Assembly: GCA_031263685.1 (NCBI GenBank)
Contig: JAISFI010000208.1
Span: forward strand, 1-38,371
Direction: 5' to 3'
DNA length: 38,371 nt
Source of the DNA: Dysgonamonadaceae bacterium
GTDB taxonomy: Bacteria > Bacteroidota > Bacteroidia > Bacteroidales > Azobacteroidaceae
The notes below the pieces were generated by a model. That model ran no database searches. It was not told where the DNA came from and was given only the letters and a program-made list of their open reading frames with translations. Positions 5,771 to 26,290 of the stretch are shown in pieces; the stretch's first letter is position 1; every line of letters begins with the position of its first letter. The position numbers were made by a program, and so were the translations under genes.

Positions 5771-5981
5771 ATTATTTCCATCCAAAGATGGAGTTCCTAA
5801 CTCTACTCGCACAGAGAGTTGAGATAATTTAATAGTTTTAAACTTGATGCAATAAATGCTCTTTCCCAATCTGCAATATATCGCAAAAGATAAGCAGAAA
5901 CAGACTGCAAAATGTTGTCCATTCCTGCTAATTATAACTGTGTTTCAAGGGTATCCTTAGATCTGGCGCGGCTCGTTTTTT

Positions 5982-6012
5982 TTTGCAGATATGAAAAATG
6001 TTTGTATCTTTG
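5982..6012 (+). promoter_or_regulatory. Canonical promoter upstream of the Abi_2 gene
   Basis: TTTG (5982-5985), a 19-nt spacer and TATCTTTG (6005-6012) match the Bacteroidota sigma-ABfr consensus exactly. Transcription should begin near 6016-6019, giving a leader of roughly 55 nt that contains the second 16-bp repeat and its T-tract before the ATG at 6072. Confidence 0.75.
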
Positions 6013-6015
6013 CGC

Positions 6016-6065
6016 CAACAGTAGTCGTTGCCATCCCGTAAGATCTGGCGCGGCTCATTTTTTTT
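6016..6065 (+). ncRNA. Putative short leader RNA/attenuator of the Abi_2 gene
   Basis: This is inferred from the canonical promoter ending at 6012 and the T-run at 6058-6065. A transcript stopping at the T-run would be about 50 nt and would carry the repeated GC-rich 16-mer at its 3' end. Abi_2 (AbiF-like) HEPN genes have been reported to work with an upstream non-coding RNA, so this is the natural place to look. No covariance evidence is available here. Confidence 0.35.
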
Positions 6066-6071
6066 ATATAC

Positions 6072-6995
6072 ATGAACAAACCTGCATACACGATTGCCGA
6101 CCAGATTGCATTGCTCAAACAGCGCGGCATGATTTTCAGAGATGAAACACAAGCCTGCGACCGTCTGCAAAATATCAGCTACTACCGTCTTAAAGGTTAC
6201 TGGTGGGACATGAAAAGCGACAAGACGCTGCATTTGTTTCATCCGGGCGCCTGTTTCGAGGACGTGCTGGATCGTTACGATTTCGACCGCAAACTTCGTC
6301 AGATTCTTTTCGGCGGCATTGAACAGATAGAAATTGCCGTCCGCACCGGTTTGATTTACCATTTGTCCCTTGCCTATGGCGGGTTGTGGTACCTGGATCC
6401 CGAACTGTTTAACCGGGTAACCGTAAACATCAACGGCACAGACAAAACGGTGCATCTTTGGGTATTGAATGAATTGCAAAAGGAATTTGCCCGCAGTCAG
6501 GAGATTTTCATTAAAGACCATCAGCGCCGCTGTCCGGGACAACCTGCCGATGCATGGAAAATGCTGGAAGTCGCCTCCATGGGAACGCTGTCCAAACTTT
6601 ACAAGAACTTGAATACAAACTTGCCGGAACGAAGCATCATCGCCAACAAAATGGGCATCAACTCGCCGCATGTATTTTCCGGATGGCTGGAATCCATTGC
6701 CTATATCCGCAATATTATTGCCCATCATTCCCGGCTGTGGAGCCGTACGATGGTGAAACGTCCCGGCATGCAGTTGAACAATCCGCAGGGCGCGTGGTTC
6801 AGCCAGCCGCTCAGGCAGGGACAGATAGACAAGCCGTTTTCGACCATCTCCTGCATGGTGTATCTGTGCAGTTTCCTGAATCGGCCGCAGGATATGAAAC
6901 GCGAAATCATCGACCTTGTCAATGCTTATCCCCGCGTGCCTGTTTACAGATACGGCTTCTTCAACGGATGGCAAACTGAACCTCTTTGGAAATAA
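6072..6995 (+). CDS. Abi_2 family HEPN protein (AbiD/AbiF-like abortive infection)
   Basis: A 307-residue soluble protein with the hallmarks of Pfam Abi_2: an N-terminal QIALLKQRGM segment, YYRLKGYWW (about 36-44), IEQIEIAVRTGLIYHLSLAYGG in the middle, and RNIIAHHSRLWSR near residues 218-230. RNIIAH is the RxxxxH catalytic motif of HEPN ribonucleases. Family members cause growth arrest or abortive infection on phage attack, probably by cutting RNA, and are held inactive in healthy cells. The gene stands alone between the efflux/AraC block and the carbohydrate cluster. It follows a duplicated repeat and a perfect promoter, and a long palindrome follows it. The ATG at 6072 is the first one after the T-tract and gives the usual family N-terminus. 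The 365-aa antisense ORF (5928-7025) is a shadow. Confidence 0.85.
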   Translation: MNKPAYTIADQIALLKQRGMIFRDETQACDRLQNISYYRLKGYWWDMKSDKTLHLFHPGACFEDVLDRYDFDRKLRQILFGGIEQIEIAVRTGLIYHLSLAYGGLWYLDPELFNRVTVNINGTDKTVHLWVLNELQKEFARSQEIFIKDHQRRCPGQPADAWKMLEVASMGTLSKLYKNLNTNLPERSIIANKMGINSPHVFSGWLESIAYIRNIIAHHSRLWSRTMVKRPGMQLNNPQGAWFSQPLRQGQIDKPFSTISCMVYLCSFLNRPQDMKREIIDLVNAYPRVPVYRYGFFNGWQTEPLWK

Positions 6996-7008
6996 CATAT
7001 TTGCCCGG

Positions 7009-7108
7009 CAGGGCATGAATATCAATAGAAAAATGGTTCAAATCACAACGAAAACCTCATAGAGGTTTCATTAATTTGAACCGTTTTTCCATTGATATGT
7101 AAGCCCTG
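7009..7108. repeat. 100-bp imperfect palindrome with nested hairpin
   Basis: Arms 7009-7043 and 7074-7108 are reverse complements at 30 of 35 positions. The 30-nt centre holds a second perfect hairpin, AAACCTC/GAGGTTT (7052-7068). It lies in the gap between the convergent Abi_2 gene (ends 6995) and the serine hydrolase gene (ends 7117). It could end transcription from both sides or be a MITE-like element. No target-site duplication is obvious. Confidence 0.7.
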
Positions 7109-25466: not shown

Positions 25467-25802
25467 ATGGAAACTATAGAATTACAGCCTAAAGAAGACG
25501 TTCCCGAGGAGCGAACGCAGGAAGTTAAAAAGTACGCATTTGTCTCTAAACGTGCATTAGAAGCAGACCATATCGGTTATTGCTACCACGATTATCCCGA
25601 AACAAATATCGACAGTGGGTGGCGTTTCCTGTACGGAGATGAAGACGAAGATTATCTGGATAATCCAACCCACAGCGAAGCCGTCTACCCGGAAGATATG
25701 CTTTCTATCAATCCCGCGTTGGAAGTCATCCTGTCTTCCCCTGTCAACATGGAGTTTGAATGGGATCCCGATCAGGAGATGTATGTGGAAATAAACGCAT
25801 AG
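25467..25802 (+). CDS. DUF2185 domain protein
   Basis: A 111-residue acidic soluble protein matching DUF2185: YAFVSKRALEADHIGYCYHD, then DSGWRFLYGDEDEDYLDNP, and a C-terminal SPVNMEFEWDPDQEMYVEI. DUF2185 proteins are small, often found alone, and have been grouped with immunity proteins of polymorphic toxins; the molecular function is not established. No toxin gene is beside it. It has its own promoter and its 3' end overlaps that of the convergent HsdR-N gene by 31 bp, so the two mRNAs would be complementary at their tails. Confidence 0.75.
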   Translation: METIELQPKEDVPEERTQEVKKYAFVSKRALEADHIGYCYHDYPETNIDSGWRFLYGDEDEDYLDNPTHSEAVYPEDMLSINPALEVILSSPVNMEFEWDPDQEMYVEINA

Positions 25803-26236
25803 TCGGGGATTTCTTTCTCAAACCGGTAGGTGTTGTCTGCATAATTGATCAGACAACAAAAATGCTGTAGCCCGTTACTGACAATTAGCCAGGGCACCTG
25901 CAACACAATGTTGTAGCGGGAAATCTGGTCGAACGTTTGCTGTGTAATGGCAACGGTTGGCGATTTGTATTCGATGATAACCAGCGGTTTCAAATATCTG
26001 TCGTAAACAATCGTGTCACAACGCTTCTTGACGTTGGCGAGAGAGATACCCATCTCATTGGCCAGCAAGCTTTCCGGAAACGACTTGTATTCAATCAGAT
26101 AATTCACAAAATGTTGTCGAACATATTCTTCCGGCGTCAACCGTACATACTGTTTTCGCAGACGATCGAAGATATAATCCTTGCCATTTTGCTTTCTTGT
26201 TTTCGTTTCGAAAGAAGGCAAATTGAGTGCTGACAT
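25772..26236 (-). CDS. Stand-alone HsdR N-terminal (PD-(D/E)XK) nuclease-domain protein
   Basis: About 154 residues from the second ATG (26234-26236), which gives the usual family start SALNLPSFETKTR; the ORF-track start at 26257 adds seven residues. It matches the type I restriction HsdR_N_2 domain: YIFDRLRKQYVRLTPEEYVR, KRCDTIVYDR, VIIEYKSP and FDQISRYN. The D...ExK core of a PD-(D/E)XK nuclease is intact (D in RCDTI, EYK). There is no helicase part and no HsdM or HsdS gene nearby, so this is not a restriction system. Lone proteins of this kind are common in Bacteroidota and may act in DNA metabolism. It is divergent from the AMP nucleosidase gene. Confidence 0.8.
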   Translation of the reverse strand: MSALNLPSFETKTRKQNGKDYIFDRLRKQYVRLTPEEYVRQHFVNYLIEYKSFPESLLANEMGISLANVKKRCDTIVYDRYLKPLVIIEYKSPTVAITQQTFDQISRYNIVLQVPWLIVSNGLQHFCCLINYADNTYRFEKEIPDYAFISTYIS

Positions 26237-26290
26237 TTTAAAATGAAACGCTGACATTATTTATCTATTTAAGTTTACAAAAAAATTATC

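Follow-up and report, generated by a model that had tools for sequence, protein, structure and literature searches.

The 38,371-nucleotide stretch of DNA analysed here, from a Dysgonamonadaceae bacterium (hereafter, the window), very probably carries a compact unit in which an AbiF toxin gene is controlled by a single hairpin that serves both as terminator and as antitoxin, with read-through transcription making AbiF (Table 1). Judged by its sequence, the leader that forms this hairpin is a predicted antitoxin RNA of the AbiFr type and of a new class, one that the Rfam model RF03085 misses. An earlier, sequence-only reading of the same DNA had likened the layout to RNA-based toxin-antitoxin systems and had not recognised the specific repeat and its duplication as described; the layout proves to be of a kind already described, that of the type III-like AbiF/AbiFr systems, and what is new is the class of RNA. 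A conserved structured ncRNA lies directly upstream of the gene, as such systems have it, and the two are presumably co-transcribed.

Table 1. Features of the abiF unit and its upstream region, numbered from the first letter of the window.
Feature	Position	Strand	Basis
Truncated duplicate of the ncRNA 3' end (16-mer + T8), no 5' partner strand	5959..5983	+	14 bits, E 3.2 to the covariance model
Bacteroidota-type promoter: TTTG (5982-5985), 19 nt, TATCTTTG (6005-6012)	5982..6012	+	Sequence; homology with relatives begins there
AbiFr-like ncRNA, class III; predicted antitoxin and intrinsic terminator	6017..6065	+	22 relatives with covariation; 70.4 bits to covariance model R1
Parts of the ncRNA: AACAG 6017-6021; 5' stem strand 6023-6033; loop 6034-6045; 3' strand 6046-6055; T8 6058-6065		+	
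Second 16-mer, spanning the edge of the ncRNA loop and its 3' stem strand	6041..6056	+	
abiF (Abi_2/AbiD-F) HEPN toxin gene, 307 aa, R213-x4-H218	6072..6995	+	Pfam, PADLOC, 8VZ6 by sequence and fold

The assignment of the gene to the Abi_2/AbiF-like HEPN proteins, made in the sequence-only reading, was borne out by its domain, its R-x4-H motif and its fold, all of which are directly supported. The open reading frame matches PF07751 (Abi_2) with an E-value of 3.2e-53 and 181 bits, against a curated cut-off of 25.6, and the AbiD entry of PADLOC with an E-value of 1.9e-67. The HEPN motif RNIIAH occupies residues 213-218 (R213-N-I-I-A-H218) and, across 21 aligned homologues, R213, N214, A217 and H218 are invariant. 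The sole solved relative, by sequence (E 4.9e-38) and by fold (E 7.7e-14 and TM 0.78 for an AlphaFold2 model with a pLDDT of 78.6), is PbAbiF, whose structure was solved in complex with its ncRNA (PDB 8VZ6; Zilberzwige-Tal et al. 2025). PbAbiF has the AbiF HEPN homodimer fold, an ncRNA partner and the R-x4-H motif in common with the window protein, whereas identity between the two proteins is 27% and the 5-6-nt 3' bulge of the class I type is missing from the window's RNA. The pairing of AbiF with an ncRNA and its place in Cas13 ancestry, both mentioned in the sequence-only reading, are published (PMC12373285; PMC12737573, which reviews Zilberzwige-Tal et al. 2025).

Some neighbouring features of the genome are recorded here in their own right. 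The same genome holds a second Abi_2 gene on contig C326 (G000:C326, L027). Directly past abiF, at window positions 7009-7108, there is a large inverted repeat with 35-nt arms that are 86% complementary; positions 7000-7033 also match L003 2321-2354, and the repeat is perhaps a dispersed palindromic element. Further away, an Imm33 immunity-like gene and a gene for a 161-aa HsdR N-terminal-type protein (HSDR_N_2) overlap on opposite strands (25467-25802 and 25772-26257).

Upstream of abiF, the promoter sits, as had been proposed, between two copies of AGATCTGGCGCGGCTC, and its -7 element, TAnnTTTG, is found at the same place in most relatives. The predicted transcript, whose exact 5' end is a presumed position, is a hairpin of about 49 nt. 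Since its stem goes straight into U8, 6 nt before the ATG, the hairpin is a predicted terminator as well. Because the second 16-mer covers only the loop edge and the 3' strand, the sequence-only reading, which had proposed a short leader RNA ending in a T-tract ahead of the HEPN gene, saw no hairpin. Folded alone with RNAfold, the window hairpin gives a modest z-score (-1.84), so that the case for it depends on comparison.

That comparison supports the leader RNA directly. We retrieved 24 related genes and compared the DNA upstream of their starts, which revealed a conserved element directly before the ATG, made up of AACAG, a stem strand, the near-fixed loop CAUMCCRUNAGAWCUG, the complementary strand and a T-tract. 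The hairpin and T-tract are present in 22 relatives, and the 16-mer is identical in four of them (L003, L004, L005 and L007), so the conservation anticipated for the 16-mer and T-tract holds for the downstream copy. In the 23 sequences comprising the window and these 22 relatives, 99.0% of cells in the stem are standard pairs, whereas shifting the partners by 1-3 columns leaves 22-41%; in four pairs both sides have changed, and the covariation score of 0.305 compares with at most 0.057 for shifted partners. One relative, L016, has no recognisable leader within 128 nt upstream of its match.

Across 396 genomes of the phylum, a covariance model built for this hairpin (R1) found one further strong example, in G274, at 67.5 bits. 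At this locus (L032, G274:C45:310427-310489) the class III leader is intact and the abiF behind it is cut short after about 30 codons, giving a decayed unit in which the RNA has been kept. The same search returned L034, which resembles a decayed leader, and matches in G395 and G275 (L033, L035) that we judged to be due to chance.

The stretch that is shared with the five closest relatives has well-defined ends. Four of the five (L003, L004, L005 and L007) align with the window from 5981-5982 and the fifth, L006, from 6005; the alignments end at about 6991-7000, just past the stop codon, and the flanks differ. Since homology starts at the promoter and stops after the stop codon between differing flanks, the RNA and gene travel as one unit of about 1 kb, in which promoter, RNA and gene are inherited or transferred together.

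The upstream copy of the 16-mer is a different matter. As had been noted, there are two copies of AGATCTGGCGCGGCTC with T-tracts: the 16-mer, one base and T8 occur at 5959-5983 and again at 6041-6065, at a spacing of 82, with 24 of 25 positions identical. It is highly improbable that the two copies act as antitoxins in tandem, or as a repeat with a regulatory role that matters to the unit, in the manner of the repeats of ToxI or of RCd22 with its two abiF motifs. The near-identity of the copies and the occurrence of tandem motifs in RCd22 (PMC12373285) are in keeping with such an arrangement, but copy 1 has no 5' strand, scores poorly against the model (Table 1), lies upstream of the promoter and outside the stretch shared with the closest relatives, and is absent from the relatives tested, none of which has a second copy above background while all keep the single hairpin. 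Where ToxIN-type systems have tandem antitoxin repeats, the window has one complete hairpin and a truncated second copy. Thus, of the RNA-controlled unit put forward in the sequence-only reading, the idea of RNA control is upheld by the conserved and covarying leader, while the part given to the duplication as a design element is not. Copy 1 is probably a non-functional relic of slippage or recombination. The base after its 16-mer is G, as in L005, where the neighbouring copy has A; this would fit descent from an older related leader, although a single base decides nothing. Two other views of the repeat were discarded: that copy 1 is a complete second ncRNA, given its missing 5' strand and low score, and that the 16-mer is a genomic repeat family, since no third copy with up to two mismatches was found in the 4.0-Mb genome (backwards control, 0).

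To place the window's RNA among its homologues, we compared the leaders of 80 Abi_2 loci and assigned them to classes by pattern. Class I, which is the Rfam abiF RNA (RF03085) or close to it, took in 12 loci by pattern, one of them (L060) misassigned and really a class II leader; class II, whose loop reads UUCCCRUNAGAACA and whose 3' bulge is 5-6 nt long, took in 30; and class III, that of the window, with a CAUMCC loop and no such bulge, took in 25. On folding, most class I and II hairpins leave 5-6 nucleotides of the 3' side unpaired between helices, whereas class III hairpins show at most a small symmetric mismatch in an almost continuous stem. RNA class and protein clade are directly seen to be inherited together: the leader classes follow the protein tree with 12 changes, against a mean of 32 for shuffled labels, with PbAbiF (8VZ6) grouping among class I leaders and two loci with a class II loop and no bulge (L037, L081) placed in the class III protein clade.

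The Rfam family does not extend to this class. RF03085, with a gathering score of 37 bits, detects class I-type leaders only; it gave no match to the window leader at E-values up to 10 and none at gathering among 19 class III loci, and a search of Rfam with the window and with the leader, again at E-values up to 10, returned nothing. The Rfam abiF architecture (a 6-bp stem, a 1x6 internal loop or 3' bulge, a 3-bp stem and an 11-nt loop) differs from that of class III, which is without the multi-nucleotide 3' bulge. The leader on C326 is related to that of the window (25.6 bits and E 0.007 with R1); it is a class II leader, so that two RNA classes coexist in this genome. A Phocaeicola plasmid, OY726013, has abiF RNAs both before and about 75 nt after its abiF match (L040, 1433-1469 and 2460-2519), the second with a longer loop.

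How the unit would work can be sketched by analogy with its characterised homologues. From a single promoter, a hairpin RNA of about 49 nt would be made; the hairpin, running into U8, would stop most transcription, and as a consequence the hairpin RNA would be produced in excess. Occasional read-through would yield the AbiF mRNA, with its start codon 6 nt past the U-tract. The hairpin RNA would bind the AbiF dimer and hold the HEPN RNase site off and, if the balance were lost through infection or another stress, AbiF would be freed, RNA cut and the cell arrested. The homologous leader of C. difficile, RCd22, arises when transcription terminates ahead of abiF; abiF expression is 17-fold higher once RCd22 is deleted, and RCd22 acting in trans neutralises AbiF (PMC12373285). 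From such homologues we infer the transcript ends, RNA-AbiF binding, inhibition, toxicity and defence role of the window unit, in which the hairpin would thus probably be antidote and transcription stop both. That the leader is an attenuator only, which holds AbiF expression down by termination and has no antitoxin role at the level of RNA and protein, we consider quite improbable: a stem leading directly into U8 would terminate unaided, but a terminator has no need of a fixed loop, and here the loop is near-invariant while stems vary freely across loci. The same loop also recurs in phage hairpins that are not followed by an abiF gene (see below), and homologous RNAs bind AbiF (PMC12373285, 8VZ6).

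The combined terminator and antitoxin that we favour has both parallels and differences among known systems. AbiFCd-RCd22 of the C. difficile prophage phi027 shares the order promoter, ncRNA, terminator and abiF, the abiF RNA motif and the HEPN toxin; in RCd22 the motif occurs twice and the terminator is a distinct element (PMC12373285), whereas in the window the motif occurs once and its stem doubles as the predicted terminator. RF03085 matches the phiC2 leader (37.6 bits), unlike that of the window. In the type III toxin-antitoxin systems ToxIN, TenpIN and CptIN, an RNA antitoxin is made in excess through termination before the toxin gene, as is predicted for the window, but the toxin fold and RNA are unrelated and the RNA consists of tandem repeats instead of a single hairpin. 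The review PMC12737573 assigns the inhibitory nucleotides of PbAbiF's RNA, C32 and U38, to a bulge that is single-stranded. Because the class III loop and the missing 3' bulge set the window's RNA apart from the experimentally tested RNAs, the inhibitory contact cannot match in detail.

Hairpins of the same kind also occur alone in phages. A scan of IMG/VR with the class III loop GCATACCRTAAGAWCTGC gave at least 120 stretches, against 2 for the reversed pattern, and patterns for class II and class I gave at least 19 and 48 loci; in all three classes, orphan AbiFr hairpins are thus common in viral contigs (viral loci L100-L266 and L296-L343). In a first, looser class III scan, 38 of 80 loci exceeded 30 bits with R1, the best reaching 62. 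Over 84 distinct flanks, which include two (L220 and L221) that came from the protein search and belong to AbiF genes, the median helix score was 7.05, compared with 3.5 for re-dealt partners. Eleven phage examples with a continuous stem have standard pairs in 121 of 121 cells, seven pairs changed on both sides and a covariation score of 0.602, against at most 0.129 when slid; some phage hairpins instead carry a 5-10-nt 3' bulge. The AbiF protein profile found no AbiF in any class III viral locus reached by pattern, in 18 of the 19 class II loci or in any of the 48 class I loci, and PF07751 was absent from all 98 whole viral records searched (0/50 and 0/48), which may be fragments; the hairpins are in this respect solitary defence RNAs with no effector gene, as in RNA-based anti-defence. 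For the window's own loop variant, CATCCCGTAAGAWCTGG (the CATCCC subclass), the viruses gave seven matches, none with a stem, and so no decoy for that subclass.

The contigs tested are phages, with portal, terminase, capsid, tail and DNA polymerase families, and are related to Flavobacterium, Cellulophaga and crAss-like phages. The orphan hairpins tend to lie near tRNA genes: 54 of 185 are within 500 nt of one, where about 18 would be expected at random positions in the same stretches (counts that include near-copies), and all 54 are on the strand of the tRNA gene. In a subgroup (L158, L165, L122, L163, L177 and L178) the hairpin follows a Bacteroidota promoter-like TAnnTTTG, together with a second conserved element, GGATAG..CC(C/T)TAGACC(G/A)AAAG, perhaps as part of a longer ncRNA. 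Other RNAs were seen nearby, namely a tmRNA match adjoining a phage tRNA array (L323, 5162-5265) and a Pseudomonadales-1 sRNA close to an orphan abiF RNA (L342, 1928-2087). One orphan (L336) belongs to an isolated phage, Acinetobacter phage Acj61, whose class I hairpin (NC_014661, about 77198-77234, minus strand; 58 bits to the Rfam abiF RNA) lies in the gap that separates a gene for a homing endonuclease from a hypothetical gene. BLAST searches of named phages with the consensus hairpin and with L165 gave no match, and R1 and the loop (up to one mismatch) gave weak matches, judged to be chance, or none in 14 named phages related to the viral contigs, including Flavobacterium phages immuto and elemo, Cellulophaga phi4:1 and huge phages. 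Lactococcal phage sk1, cited, according to a title listed in PMC12737573, for a DNA region conferring protection from AbiF on phage 712, has no abiF RNA match.

On balance we favour the view that solitary AbiFr hairpins of every class are widespread in phages and act as RNA decoys, keeping host AbiF inhibited during infection and commonly made from tRNA arrays, with the class III AbiFr/AbiF family among the targets. As candidate decoy antitoxins, the orphan hairpins would resemble pseudo-ToxI of phage PhiTE (PMC3475682) and the RNA anti-CRISPRs, or Racrs (PMC10651486), each a solitary copy of a defence RNA; wild-type PhiTE pseudo-ToxI has 1.5 repeats and is inactive, whereas the phage AbiFr hairpins are complete and their putative target is AbiF. 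A literature search, with Zilberzwige-Tal 2025 and Weinberg 2017 lying outside it, returned no report of AbiF decoy hairpins in phages. T-runs follow many of the phage hairpins, which are located at the ends of genes or within tRNA arrays, as would be expected if they were terminators or processing hairpins that happen to share the AbiFr loop, or regulators of a phage gene. We regard this as rather unlikely, however, given that in each of three classes the loop agrees with that of the matching AbiFr, that many class III phage hairpins keep the 5' AACAGUACC and 3' GGUC flanks, that 15 of 16 class I examples tested pass the Rfam abiF gathering score, and that the stem covaries freely around a fixed loop, a pattern indicative of selection for a contact through the loop.

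Cas13 is proposed to have descended from AbiF, and guide RNAs are thought to have their origin in the way an ncRNA holds AbiF off; a protein clade whose RNA lacks the 3' bulge provides a natural comparison for how ncRNAs control AbiF. If the decoy reading is true, AbiF defence meets a widespread RNA-based counter-defence, and the orphan hairpins would reveal the nucleotides that AbiF binds. Since the isolated phage Acj61 carries such a hairpin, the role of AbiF against phages is directly testable.
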